A stretch of 18,907 bases of DNA, taken from positions 1 through 18,907 of the forward strand of contig CAMLKQ010000008.1 in NCBI GenBank assembly GCA_946480585.1, given 5' to 3'. How positions within the stretch are numbered: position 1 is the stretch's first letter; each line of letters opens with the position of its first letter. Of this stretch, positions 7,063 to 15,542 are shown piece after piece. The position numbers and the translations under genes were made by a program. The DNA comes from an uncultured Kangiella sp. (lineage in GTDB: Bacteria; Pseudomonadota; Gammaproteobacteria; Enterobacterales; DSM-103792). Below the pieces are notes generated by a model. It was not told where the DNA came from. It ran no database searches and saw only the letters and a program-made list of their open reading frames with translations.

Positions 7063-7497
7063 ATGAGCAGATTGAAGGCAGGAATCGGTGTGTTGGCCGC
7101 CGCCATGCTGGTGGCATGCGCCAGTAGCAGCGGCCCTTTTGTGCGCTCCAGCGAGCCGCACGGCATTGTCGATCTGGATATTCCGCGGCAAGCCCATCAG
7201 CAGTACGAAGCGTTTTTCCTTGCCGTTGATGGCCAGAATGTCGTGCCGGATCGCAAGCAATTGCTGTTGCGACCGGGCCAGCACACCATCCGGCTCGGTG
7301 CCAAGCTCGAGAACCTGTATGGCGCTGGCGCCATTTCCCGGCCTGGCAATCGGACGTCCGAGCACGGCACGGTGACCATCGAGGTGAAGGAGGGCATGCG
7401 TTACAGCGTGGCAGCCAAACTCGACGGTCCGTACACCGATGATTGGAAGGCGATTGTCAGCCGAGAGACACCGCTGCAGGGCTATGCCAACCGCTGA
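7063..7497 (+). CDS. Small putative lipoprotein of unknown function
   Basis: Residues 1-19 form a lipoprotein signal (MSRLKAGIGVLAAAMLVAC) with the lipobox LVAC and Cys at 19, so the mature protein is expected to be lipid-anchored in the envelope, starting CASSSGPF. The ATG at 7063 has AAGGAG seven bases upstream and puts the signal at the N-terminus; a start 13 codons earlier would not. The mature part (about 125 residues) looks like a small beta-rich domain: VDLDIPRQ, then YEAFFLAVDGQNV, a GQHTIRLGAKLE strand, TVTIEVKEGMRYSVAAKL. The 'PGQHTIRL... V.EGM.Y.V' pattern resembles PEGA-like or carboxypeptidase-regulatory-like surface domains, but I cannot assign a family. It diverges from pckA and is followed by its own hairpin. 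Confidence 0.82.
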   Translation: MSRLKAGIGVLAAAMLVACASSSGPFVRSSEPHGIVDLDIPRQAHQQYEAFFLAVDGQNVVPDRKQLLLRPGQHTIRLGAKLENLYGAGAISRPGNRTSEHGTVTIEVKEGMRYSVAAKLDGPYTDDWKAIVSRETPLQGYANR

Positions 7498-7520
7498 TTG
7501 AGCGGATACCTGTTGAAACC

Positions 7521-7552
7521 AACGCCGCGCCAGCTCGCGGCGTTGTTGTTTG
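7521..7552 (+). terminator. Terminator after the lipoprotein gene
   Basis: AACGCCGCG (7521-7529) pairs perfectly with CGCGGCGTT (7536-7544) around a 6-base loop, followed by GTTGTTTGG. It starts 24 bases after the stop. The U tract is interrupted. Confidence 0.65.
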
Positions 7553-7628
7553 GATGTGGCTTGCGCTGACAAGTTGCTCGGAAATGGTTATGGTTTGCCA
7601 TGATTGTCCTGGTCACTTTTGCCACCGC

Positions 7629-7633
7629 TGGAG
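7629..7633 (+). promoter_or_regulatory. Ribosome-binding site for the GTG start of the DUF4870 gene
   Basis: TGGAG lies eight bases before the GTG at 7642. It favours that start over the in-frame ATG at 7600, which has no comparable site. Confidence 0.55.
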
Positions 7634-7641
7634 ACTGCATC

Positions 7642-8001
7642 GTGTCCGACTTTCCGTCACAACAAGAAATCAAGGCCCGGCAATGGGGCATGTTCATCCA
7701 TTTGTCGATCCTCGCCGGTTACCTGATCCCGTTTGCCGGTTTTATCGTTCCCATCGTCATGTGGCAGATGAAGAAATACGAACATCCGCTGATTGACGCC
7801 CATGGCAAGAATGTCGCCAACTGGCTGTTGTCGTTTCTGCTATACGGGTTCATTTGCTGGATTCTGGCGCTGATTCTGATCGGTTTCTTTTTTCTCTGGG
7901 TGCTCGGCATTCTCAATATCGTGTTTGCGATCATTGGTGGCCTCAAGGCCAACAACGGCGAAGTCTGGGCCTATCCGTTCACGATTCGCTTCTTCAAATG
8001 A
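7642..8001 (+). CDS. DUF4870 (Tic20-like) small membrane protein
   Basis: DUF4870-family integral inner-membrane protein of unknown biochemical role. From the GTG at 7642 the product is 119 residues and starts MSDFPSQQEIKARQWGMFIHL. The family pattern is plain: a short polar N-terminus, a first hydrophobic segment (LSILAGYLIPFAGFIVPIVMW, about 21-41), the conserved loop KKYEHPLIDAHGKNVANW (about 43-60), then two more hydrophobic segments (about 59-75 and 80-100) and a C-terminal GGLKANNGEVWAYPFTIRFFK. Starting at the upstream ATG at 7600 would add 14 residues that do not fit the family. It is a monocistronic gene followed by a good terminator shared with the convergent aldehyde dehydrogenase gene. 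Confidence 0.9.
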   Translation: MSDFPSQQEIKARQWGMFIHLSILAGYLIPFAGFIVPIVMWQMKKYEHPLIDAHGKNVANWLLSFLLYGFICWILALILIGFFFLWVLGILNIVFAIIGGLKANNGEVWAYPFTIRFFK

Positions 8002-8016
8002 GTTCGTGATAATTGA

Positions 8017-8043
8017 AAAAGCCCCGCATTGCGGGGCTTTTCC
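8017..8043. terminator. Bidirectional terminator between DUF4870 and aldehyde dehydrogenase genes
   Basis: AAAAGCCCCGC (8017-8027) pairs with GCGGGGCTTTT (8031-8041) across a 3-base loop, with T runs on the plus strand and A runs on the left that serve the minus strand. The genes end at 8001 and 8070. Confidence 0.88.
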
Positions 8044-8069
8044 TTTGCTGCATCGGCGATACGGCCGGT

Positions 8070-9512
8070 TTAGTGCTGTTCCTTCGGCGGTGTTCGGATG
8101 ATCAGCATGCGCAGCTCGGTCATGTCCTCGATGGCGTAACGGATGCCTTCGCGGCCGAGGCCGGAGTCTTTCACGCCGCCGTAGGGCATGTGATCGACCC
8201 GCCAGCTCGGGATATCGCCGATGACGACACCGCCGACTTCCAGTACATCCCAAGCGCGCTGGATCTTGTAGATGTCGCGAGTGAACACGCCGGCCTGCAG
8301 ACCGAAATCGCTGTTGTTGACCTCATGGAGCGCGGCATCGAAATCGTTAAAGGAACTGATGACCGCGACCGGACCAAACGCTTCCTGACAGGAAATATTG
8401 GCCGCGTTCGGCACATTTTCCAGCAAGGTGGCTTCCAGCATGGCGCCTTGTCGTTTGCCACCGCACAGCAGCGTGGCGCCGCCGGCAACGGCTTCGTTGA
8501 CCCAGCCTTCGAGACGCTCGGCTTCCTTGCTGGAAATCATCGGGCCGATGAAGGTTGCCGGATCTTTCGGGTCGCCCATTTTCAGCGCCTTGGTGGCGGC
8601 AACGAGCTGATCACGGAAAGTCTTGTAAATGGCTTCGTGCACCAGAATGCGCTGGACACTGATGCAGCTCTGGCCGCTCTGGTAGAACGCGCCAAACACC
8701 ACTCGCTTGACCGCGTCTTCGATGTCGCTGTCGTGGTCGATGATGCAGGCGGCGTTGCCGCCGAGCTCCAACACCACTTTCTTCTTGCCGGCCTTGGCTT
8801 TCAGATCCCAACCGACTTGCGGCGAACCGGTGAACGAGAGCAACTTCAGTCGTTCGTCGGTGGTGAACAGATCGGCGCCGTCACGCGAGCAGGGCAGAAT
8901 CGAGAACGCGCCTTTCGGCAGATCGGTTTCGGCCAGCACTTCGCCGATGATCAGCGCACCAATCGGCGTCATCGAGGCCGGTTTGAGCACGAACGGGCAG
9001 CCGGCCGCGATCGCCGGCGCCACTTTGTGGGCAGCGAGGTTGAGCGGAAAATTGAACGGGGAAATGAACGAGCAGGGGCCAATGGGCACTCGCTTCCACA
9101 TGCCGGTGTAGCCGACCGCGCGGGCAGAAATATCGAGCGGCATCACTTCGCCGTATATGCGCACCGACTCTTCGGCGGCGATTCGGAACGTGTCGATGAG
9201 CCGGACCGCTTCGCCGCGGGCGTCGTTGATCGGCTTGCCGTTCTCGATGGTCAGCGCTTGGGCCAGCTCTTCCAGCCGTTCAGTAAACCGCTGCACGCAG
9301 TGCTGCAGGATTTGCTGGCGCTTGTAAGCCGGCAGCTTGCGCATCGGCTCGCTGGCGGCGTCGGCGGCGGCAATGGCGGCATCGATGGCCTTGGCATCGG
9401 CCAAGGCGACCCGGGTCGCGACTTCACCGGTGTATTTGTCGATTACGGCGAGCTCTTGGTTGGCATAAACCGGGGCATTGGCGAGATAGTAGGGGTAGGC
9501 TGGCTTGAGCAC
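8070..9512 (-). CDS. NAD(P)-dependent aldehyde dehydrogenase
   Basis: Aldehyde dehydrogenase superfamily enzyme that oxidises an aldehyde to its acid with NAD(P)+; cytosolic. All key residues are present in the 480-residue protein: N154 in SPFNFP, K177 in FVLKPAS, E249 in LELGGN, the catalytic C283 in GQSCISVQR, and E377 in QEAFGP. The GQSCISVQR and C-terminal WRVDHMPYGGVKDSGLGREG style points to the lactaldehyde/phosphonoacetaldehyde/glyceraldehyde-3-phosphate-like subgroup, but the substrate cannot be read from sequence alone. I start it at the GTG at 9512, preceded by GGAG at a spacing of nine. It stands alone, converging on the DUF4870 gene and diverging from the macrodomain gene 123 bases away, so the neighbours give little hint of substrate. 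Confidence 0.93.
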   Translation of the reverse strand: MLKPAYPYYLANAPVYANQELAVIDKYTGEVATRVALADAKAIDAAIAAADAASEPMRKLPAYKRQQILQHCVQRFTERLEELAQALTIENGKPINDARGEAVRLIDTFRIAAEESVRIYGEVMPLDISARAVGYTGMWKRVPIGPCSFISPFNFPLNLAAHKVAPAIAAGCPFVLKPASMTPIGALIIGEVLAETDLPKGAFSILPCSRDGADLFTTDERLKLLSFTGSPQVGWDLKAKAGKKKVVLELGGNAACIIDHDSDIEDAVKRVVFGAFYQSGQSCISVQRILVHEAIYKTFRDQLVAATKALKMGDPKDPATFIGPMISSKEAERLEGWVNEAVAGGATLLCGGKRQGAMLEATLLENVPNAANISCQEAFGPVAVISSFNDFDAALHEVNNSDFGLQAGVFTRDIYKIQRAWDVLEVGGVVIGDIPSWRVDHMPYGGVKDSGLGREGIRYAIEDMTELRMLIIRTPPKEQH

Positions 9513-9635
9513 GGGGGCAATCTCCGGCGGGTCGGCTGGCCGATGCGGCCATGTTTAATATTTTGAACAGGCTAGCCGTTTTGGTTGGCGATGTAAACCG
9601 CGGCGTGCGGGCGTTTCGGGGGACAAGGGGGCGGT

Positions 9636-10157
9636 ATGGCGGTACTCAAGGTCTGGCTGGGCGACCTGACCACGCTTGCGGTTGATGCCATCGTCAACGC
9701 CGCCAACACCAGCCTGCTGGGGGGCGGTGGCGTCGATGGTGCCATTCACCGTGCCGCCGGTCCCGGGCTTCTGGCAGAATGCCGCACCCTCGGCGGCTGC
9801 CCGGTTGGCGAGGCGCGATTGACCAACGGCCATCTGCTGCGTGCCCGCTATGTGATTCACACCGTCGGGCCGATTTGGCAGGGCGGTGATCGCGGCGAGC
9901 CGGCGCTGTTGGCGGATTGTTATCGCAACAGTTTGCAGTTGGCGGCGGCGCACGCCATCCGGCGGGTCGCGTTTCCGGCAATCAGCTGTGGTGTGTATGG
10001 TTACCCGCCTGCGTTGGCCGCGCCACTTGCGGTGAACACGGTGGTGACGACGCTGAGCTTGTATCCGCAGATCGAGGAAGTCACGTTCTGCTGTTTCAGT
10101 CGCGAATTTGTCCCGCTGTACCGCGATGCCTTGGCGGCGCAGGACGGCGTGGACTGA
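9636..10157 (+). CDS. Macrodomain protein, O-acetyl-ADP-ribose deacetylase (YmdB-like)
   Basis: Single macrodomain of 173 residues, close in pattern to E. coli YmdB, which removes the acetyl group from O-acetyl-ADP-ribose and also modulates RNase III and biofilm formation. Visible features: [16 protein letters not shown] with D10 (adenine contact) and N24, the glycine-rich loop [15 protein letters not shown] with D34 (N and D match the catalytic pair known in YmdB), HTVGPIW, and the phosphate loop ISCGVYGYP near residues 116-124. The ATG at 9636 follows a purine-rich AAGGGGGCGGT. The protein is cytosolic. It diverges from the aldehyde dehydrogenase gene. Assignment to the MacroD/YmdB group is firm; the physiological substrate (free metabolite or ADP-ribosylated target) is not. 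Confidence 0.93.
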
Positions 10158-15314: not shown

Positions 15315-15542
15315 TCATACAAGGGTAGAAGAAAACCGCCAAGCCGCCAGTCGACAGGCCGTGAAAATGGCCGGAATTCGCCAGCCCCAGAATGCATCAA
15401 GGCGACCATCGGTCGCCTTGATTTGCCGCAATTCGGATTTTAGCTTGACCCGGTCGCGGGTCCGTTCAGCCTTCTGGCTGGGGCCGTGCGCGCCACCCTT
15501 GCGCAGGATGGGGGCACAGGCATGGCGGTTTCGCGCTTTCAT
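15315..15542 (-). CDS. Small basic protein gene with an in-frame hairpin
   Basis: Not part of any family I can name with confidence. The ATG at 15542 has AAAGGA eight bases upstream, the best ribosome-binding site nearby. The 75-residue product has a very basic first part (MKARNRHACAPILRKGGAHG, then KAERTRDRVKLKSELRQ), suggestive of RNA or ribosome binding, and a hydrophobic aromatic tail (FWGWRIPAIFTACRLAAWRF). Between them, codons 41-49 are a perfect 12-bp hairpin (15396-15422). If transcripts end or are cut there, the message would lack a stop codon, as is known for arfA. The gene lies between the EamA transporter and chemoreceptor genes, same strand, 170 bases after the transporter stop. 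Alternatively translation simply continues to the stop at 15315, or the hairpin is an ordinary processing site. Confidence 0.58.
   Translation of the reverse strand: MKARNRHACAPILRKGGAHGPSQKAERTRDRVKLKSELRQIKATDGRLDAFWGWRIPAIFTACRLAAWRFSSTLV
15396..15422 (-). other. Perfect 12-bp hairpin inside the small basic gene
   Basis: ATCAAGGCGACC and its exact complement flank a 3-base loop. On the minus strand it is followed by GCATTCTGG, not a T tract, and on the plus strand by GATTTG. It could be an RNase III target or a weak terminator within the reading frame. Confidence 0.7.

Follow-up and report, generated by a model that had tools for sequence, protein, structure and literature searches.

Small basic proteins of an unnamed family from beta- and gammaproteobacteria, with a recurrent in-frame hairpin at the gene end, as candidate ribosome-rescue factors

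ArfA and BrfA are encoded by genes with non-stop ends, owing to which the back-up protein appears when trans-translation fails (PMC8012679, PMC6881298, PMC8327144). In brfA of Bacillus subtilis the non-stop mRNA results from an intrinsic terminator lying within the coding region (PMC6881298), while the hairpin of Pseudomonas aeruginosa ArfA is reported to be shorter than known RNase III substrates (PMC13159725). ArfT of Francisella is 40 amino acids long and carries a positively charged KKGGSTNKK stretch near its C terminus; for its gene the paper reports neither a terminator nor an RNase III site upstream of the stop codon (PMC6299226). ArfT is given a broad distribution in another report, the word hairpin being absent from its main text (PMC6514570). 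Finally, RtcB2–PrfH is a known repair and rescue pair, so rescue and RNA ligation can go together (PMC9223846).

The gene described here comes from the window, i.e., the whole stretch of DNA analysed, 18,907 nucleotides of a contig of an uncultured Kangiella sp. (CAMLKQ010000008.1). It has the following parts and flanks:

15542-15315 (-): small ORF of 75 codons, coding for a basic protein of 75 amino acids
15551..15556 (-): ribosome-binding site AAAGGA, 8 nt upstream of the ATG, read from the sequence
15387..15542 (-): conserved core, codons 1-52 (MKARNRHACAPILRKGGAHGPSQKAERTRDRVKLKSELRQIKATDGRLDAFW), delimited by the identity of relatives and the family consensus
15486..15500 (-): family motif K-G-G-A-H, codons 15-19, from the alignment of 58 members
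15411..15476 (-): predicted basic helix, residues 23-44, from the AlphaFold2 model
15396..15422 (-): in-frame hairpin, codons 41-49, loop GAT, the proposed site of mRNA truncation
15318..15386 (-): codons 53-75, the non-conserved tail, as a rule presumably not translated
15315..15317 (-): TGA stop of the ORF, situated past the hairpin, read from the sequence
16732-15713: gene for an EamA transporter, flanking the small gene
15287-14067 (same strand as the small gene): MCP gene on the other flank, starting 27 nt past the small-gene stop

An earlier note on this DNA, made from the sequence alone, had proposed a tmRNA-responsive gene with a non-stop end. Its reading of the ribosome-binding site (AAAGGA at 15556-15551, 8 nt before the ATG) and of a basic N-terminal part (12 K/R against 3 D/E in codons 1-41) proved correct. 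The window protein (P0001) has no match in Pfam or in NCBIfam at E values up to 10. Its AlphaFold2 model (mean pLDDT 79, pTM 0.38) has a largely extended N-terminus followed by two helices, 23-44 and 47-74, and a fold search of this model against the PDB gave no match. Neither a tmRNA gene adjoining the small gene nor an ArfB-like gene next to it was found in the window. A gene for a macro-domain protein (PF01661) is located in the window at 9636-10157 (+).

At 15422-15396, codons 41-49 are filled exactly by the hairpin (ATCAAGGCGACC-GAT-GGTCGCCTTGAT), in which a 3-nt loop caps a perfect 12-bp stem, just as first described. Chance was rejected as its origin on the grounds of two shuffling tests: the fold of the whole ORF has a z of -3.14, with 1 of 200 dinucleotide shuffles equal or better, and when codons 34-75 were shuffled 300 times by codon, the hairpin score was never matched (p 0.003). 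A known RNA family was likewise rejected as the identity of the locus, as no Rfam entry passed the gathering threshold in the window. The stem is not followed by a T tract, which the earlier note had also remarked. A weak terminator-like site with a T-rich tail is present at 15357-15336 (-), in the ORF tail upstream of the stop; the scan for such sites gave two on both strands of the stretch that it covered, with 0.7 expected. In the relative L038 a hairpin with one mismatch is found at the position corresponding to that of the window, and its upper stem is exchanged (GACC/GGTC in the window versus CGG/CCG in L038).

A protein search with the window protein returned eight matches, and the two with a named source are from Permianibacter. 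Residues 1-52 show no difference (0/52) in P0002, P0003, and P0005, one in P0006, and five to seven in the other four relatives. Of the residues encoded by hairpin codons 41-49, all are invariant in the nine sequences except the one from loop codon 45, which is D, T or N. As to the tail, the two closest relatives, identical to the window protein over residues 1-52, share 21 and 18 of its 23 residues, and five of the eight stop early, 2 to 6 residues past residue 52. Since codons 53-75 vary or are replaced by stops, the hydrophobic aromatic tail is not a conserved element, and the idea of a conserved destabilising tail finds no support here. The second modelled helix of the window protein (47-74) falls within this tail.

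A scan of genome contigs revealed a relative of the window protein in Leeia oryzae (40% identity), the gene of which has an in-frame hairpin of ca. 22 bp in the same place, ending at the stop codon. The first profile, built from the window relatives and Leeia, matched 30 of 369 class genomes at E<=0.01, some of them spuriously (L023 and L027-L031 were judged so and left out). With the refined profile, the family was detected in 29 of 369 genomes sampled from Leeia's class (E<=1e-3), 31 of 200 sampled from its order (1e-5), and 2 of 160 sampled from the phylum, one of the latter being Leeia itself. The hairpin count also excludes L066 (E 6.7e-4), and three further rows were dropped: G491, which has no locus, L091, in which the motif pattern was not found, and the duplicate of G001. 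The family is thus present in many beta- and gammaproteobacteria, and it is previously unnamed: when proteins were searched with the refined profile, 171 of 410 candidates were reported, and of the 120 listed none has a Pfam domain and all the named ones are hypothetical (or uncharacterized) proteins. The 32 aligned members compared with Pfam and NCBIfam gave no match at 0.01, and a literature search, whose coverage leaves out most subscription journals, returned no account of the family.

The family consensus reads PRNxxAxxPxLRKGGAHxxSxxAxRxxxKxxL. Among the 58 aligned members (numbered as the window protein), G17 is found in 57 and H19 in all 58, both being partly built in by the GG.H-type pattern used to select the rows; conserved outside this pattern are R4 (53/58), N5 (50/58), and R27 (57/58), while residue 31 is K or R in 54 of the 58. 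Purine-rich sites precede the likely start in most of the 23 members listed. The core is present in genomes of at least three orders, and the genes downstream of it vary. Genome G257 carries two family copies (C1:668737-668892 and C2:513587-513727), one of them stand-alone and the other together with rtcB and X320, a gene described below.

The 3' ends of the family genes were compared in a set of 58 (29 matches from the class sample, 28 from the order sample, and the window gene). Downstream of the core and ahead of the stop, 32 of them have an in-frame hairpin significant at p<0.05 (about 3 expected) and 24 one significant at p<0.01 (0.6 expected), while the other 26 have none that is significant. 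For the control, 109 neighbouring ORFs contributed their 3' ends, the lengths being sampled from those of the family set; these are the longest ORFs of at least 150 amino acids, some of which may not be genes. A hairpin score of at least 24 is attained by 26 of the 58 family genes versus 2 of the 109 control ends (Fisher 2.6e-12). In 12 of the 32 significant genes (L041, L047, L050, L055, L070, L071, L074, L077, L078, L082, L085, and L088) a run of at least four T stands at the 3' edge of the hairpin, as in intrinsic terminators, here placed in frame. The 32 also include weak hairpins, e.g., those of L045 and L073, whose stronger terminator is situated downstream of the stop: directly past it in L073, as in L072, and 46 nt past it in L045 (= L011).

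The stems vary among relatives with changes on both sides; one and the same pair is C-G in L078, U-G in L082, and U-A in L083. Sequence identity falls beyond the hairpin: L085 and L088 agree in 178 of 183 DNA positions through it and in 29 of 90 after it, and four other hairpin pairs in 148/200, 129/197, 117/164, and 126/237 positions before and in 25 to 37 of 90 after. Two pairs of stop-terminated genes gave 122/168 and 127/183 before the stop, and 27/90 and 43/90 after. The hairpin end is a recurrent but not universal design of the family: the 26 genes without it, together with L072, L073, and L045, are homologues of the kind that the earlier note had named as speaking against its proposal, i.e., lacking the hairpin or having a stop before it. 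Given these 26 and the weak hairpins among the 32, translation probably ends at a normal stop codon in many members.

The neighbourhood was examined in 59 loci, the window and 58 regions extending up to ca. 7 kb to each side (less at contig ends). In 24 of them a gene for the RNA ligase RtcB and/or X320 lies directly upstream on the same strand, the nearer one within ca. 170 nt of the family match: rtcB in 20 loci and X320 in 11. The rtcB gene is represented by C-terminal pieces only in L103, L114, and L128 and is cut by the contig end in L109; the X320 copy of L130 is a remnant, and that of L129 was placed upstream from the coordinates of the profile match. Both genes occur in seven loci, six in the order rtcB–X320–small gene and one (L102) as X320–rtcB–small gene. 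In L101, rtcB is found 1.9 kb downstream of the small gene. The remaining 35 loci, including the window and Leeia, have neither gene directly upstream, and in these two neither was found anywhere near the small gene. These counts come from a separate locus scan; the mechanical survey of neighbours took the longest ORFs and at least once a wrong frame (L044). For the eight RtcB proteins scanned, the top-scoring NCBIfam model is an RtcB-related one, with scores that reach none of the listed cut-offs, including that of TIGR03073, presumably the PrfH-linked RtcB form, going by the model name release_rtcB.

X320 is a conserved protein of 300-325 residues with the motifs TLAWxRxDxD, LIEExQxD, and LYxxLP, usually encoded between rtcB and the small gene or directly upstream of the latter. 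Representative copies are:

L038:1697-2668 (-): X320
L045:1677-2657 (-): X320
L085:1656-2585 (-): X320
L050:542-1486 (+): X320
L053:539-1489 (+): X320
L054:477-1421 (+): X320

It has no match in Pfam (five copies and that of L085) or NCBIfam (the L038 copy), its best PDB match has an E value of 0.33, and it was not found in viral contigs or plasmids. Neither X320 nor the small protein matches PADLOC or PHROGs, and the identity of either as a phage or defence protein was rejected.

Several single loci deserve description. In G198:C105 (L103), at ca. 7240-7880, an ArfB gene (192.7 bits) precedes a remnant of the rtcB C-terminus, which in turn precedes the small gene, an arrangement that looks as if ArfB took over the place of most of rtcB; the match to the ArfB model reads with a GGQ motif, by eye from the DNA. 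In G016 a tmRNA gene with the tag ANDDNYALAA (L061:981-1342 (-) = G016:C10:46044-46405) lies ca. 160 bp from the family gene and divergent from it, the sole tmRNA in the 58 family loci scanned. In L113 a 694-residue EF-G-like protein is encoded (7765-9849, +) directly downstream of an rtcB–X320–small gene array. The more frequent Pfam families of mechanically picked neighbours, 25 out of 29 upstream and 25 out of 42 downstream, include no release-factor family. Taken as a whole, the neighbourhood points to ribosome rescue and RNA repair.

The distribution of rescue systems was compared over the same genomes. tmRNA scored above the cut-off in 38 of the 43 family genomes tried (59 found). ArfA is present in 6 of the 369 and 1 of the 200 genomes, never alongside the family; mutual exclusion of the two was rejected, since chance alone would give zero overlap with seven ArfA genomes about as often as not (P about 0.48). 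Among four genomes of the order that includes G191, the family occurs in G191 and ArfA in G052 and G296, an anecdotal observation. ArfB was followed with NF006718 (printed PRK09256.1), which we take to be the ArfB model and whose controls in E. coli and Caulobacter match. In the order sample ArfB is rarer in genomes with the family (9 of 31 versus 106 of the 169 others, p 7e-4), while the class sample as a whole shows no depletion (10 of 27 versus 24 of 53, p 0.63), this test covering 27 of the 29 positives and 53 of the 340 negatives, picked by handle number. In a post hoc split that ignores kinship, ArfB occurs in 3 of 22 and 2 of 12 family genomes unlinked to rtcB or X320, and in 6 of 9 and 8 of 15 linked ones; for the unlinked class genomes the contrast, also post hoc, has p 0.10 when all 53 negatives are used and p 0.007 when they are restricted to the 33 of at least 2.2 Mb. 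All the ArfB statistics take no account of phylogeny.

With the same gene-end design as the known factors, a basic composition, links to rtcB, and single cases of ArfB and tmRNA as neighbours, the small protein is most simply another rescue factor, and a recurrent non-stop gene end without detectable ArfA homology makes it a candidate for independent evolution. Judging from sequence and from the analogy to known factors, we lean towards the view that the family of the window gene consists of independent, non-stop-encoded, tmRNA-responsive ribosome-rescue factors. The earlier idea of a diverged or independent rescue design is supported in its non-stop end and lack of detectable ArfA homology, and unsupported as to a conserved hydrophobic tail. 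The small basic protein would act as a back-up factor as follows. The mRNA would usually be cut or terminated at the in-frame hairpin, leaving ribosomes at a 3' end devoid of a stop codon; with tmRNA–SmpB active, the nascent protein would be tagged and destroyed, and with trans-translation overloaded a product of ca. 45 residues would survive. By analogy with ArfA and BrfA, its basic KGGxH-K-R part may enter the empty mRNA channel, and the protein may bring in a release factor, thereby freeing the ribosome. The position of the gene after rtcB and/or X320 in many relatives suggests that rescue is coupled to the repair of cleaved RNA. The fuller proposal, which we hold tentatively and which falls somewhat short of being probable, is that of a new rescue family of wide occurrence in beta- and gammaproteobacteria, which shares no ancestry with ArfA or ArfB and probably none with BrfA, and whose expression depends chiefly on a failure of trans-translation, part of it in an rtcB–X320–small gene operon for rescue and repair, with stand-alone members replacing ArfB. 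If the family does consist of rescue factors, it could explain the back-up of tmRNA in many beta- and gammaproteobacteria devoid of ArfA or ArfB, and non-stop feedback control would have evolved once more, this time linked to RNA repair by RtcB. Small basic ORFs with a hairpin or terminator upstream of the stop codon could then serve as a recipe for finding such factors.

The same neighbourhood could be read differently, the small protein being an accessory of RNA repair that binds RNA or ribosomes, hands damaged ones over to its partners, the RtcB ligase and X320, and recruits no release factor, and the non-stop end doing no more than tying its level to tmRNA activity. The frequency of rtcB (20/59) and X320 (11/59) upstream on the same strand, the nearer within ca. 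170 nt, would fit such a role, and so would the existence of RtcB2–PrfH as a repair and rescue pair (PMC9223846); yet both genes are missing from the position directly upstream in 35 of the 59 loci, including the window and Leeia, and stand-alone members retain the motif and many of them the hairpin, which makes this reading unlikely. Less likely still is an accidental terminator at an operon end, in which case the gene would come last after rtcB and X320, its stop would happen to lie past the terminator, the full protein would be made, and the hairpin would have no regulatory meaning. That only 2 of 109 neighbouring-ORF ends attain the same hairpin score, that a T run, by the criterion applied, is missing from 20 of the 32 significant hairpins, that some of them belong to unlinked genes (window, Leeia), and that the sequence 3' of the hairpin is not conserved all argue against this, although the linked genes do sit downstream of rtcB and X320, and L072 and L073 do have a normal stop followed by a terminator.

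A role of the small ORF and its hairpin as a leader or attenuator of the gene downstream, in the window the MCP gene (15287-14067), is very improbable: this gene does follow on the same strand, its start being 27 nt past the stop, but no Pfam family recurs in more than two of the 44 scanned genes on the downstream side, which were picked mechanically, and the protein core persists in at least three orders with changing downstream genes. If the family does consist of rescue factors, it could explain the back-up of tmRNA in many beta- and gammaproteobacteria devoid of ArfA or ArfB, and non-stop feedback control would have evolved once more, this time linked to RNA repair by RtcB. Small basic ORFs with a hairpin or terminator upstream of the stop codon could then serve as a recipe for finding such factors.

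Of the known systems, ArfA (E. coli YhdL, PF03889) resembles the family in being small and basic, in having an in-frame hairpin upstream of the stop codon, and in the expected tagging of the product by tmRNA. With identical settings, the hairpin is significant in five of the seven ArfA genes from the same genome samples; in the other two the stem runs across the stop (L033) or the loop is longer than allowed (L035), both outside the test. The window hairpin is short, as is, reportedly, that of P. aeruginosa ArfA (PMC13159725). In sequence, the earlier note's failure to see any likeness to ArfA is confirmed: a PF03889 search with E up to 10 was negative, hhalign of the 58 family rows with 7 ArfA rows gave a probability of 0.2% over 12 columns, and the family profile matched no PDB chain at E up to 10, while an ArfA query does find ArfA chains. 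Identity as an ArfA homologue was rejected on the basis of these searches. Unlike ArfA, the family has no KGKGS motif, and it is the commoner of the two in the samples (29 versus 6 of 369 genomes, and 31 versus 1 of 200). An ArfB-type GGQ peptidyl-tRNA hydrolase domain was sought in P0001 as well, which has no GGQ and no match in Pfam or NCBIfam.

The significant in-frame hairpin with a T run in 12 of the 58 family genes may correspond to the intrinsic terminator within brfA, whereas the window hairpin has no T run; BrfA was described from Bacillus, and its sequence comparison with the family consists of the profile search of PDB chains, which gave no match. The KKGGSTNKK stretch of ArfT resembles KKGGxHxK of the family, as judged by eye from the nine published residues, and ArfT has T at the position of the family's H in this alignment; ArfT may be a distant cousin. 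RtcB2–PrfH, in which rtcB is followed by a gene of the translation-rescue type and for which a coupling of rescue and RNA ligation has been proposed (PMC9223846), resembles the linked loci, but unlike PrfH the family protein is short and basic, without a GGQ motif in the aligned members, and unlike the RtcB2–PrfH operon its loci often add X320.
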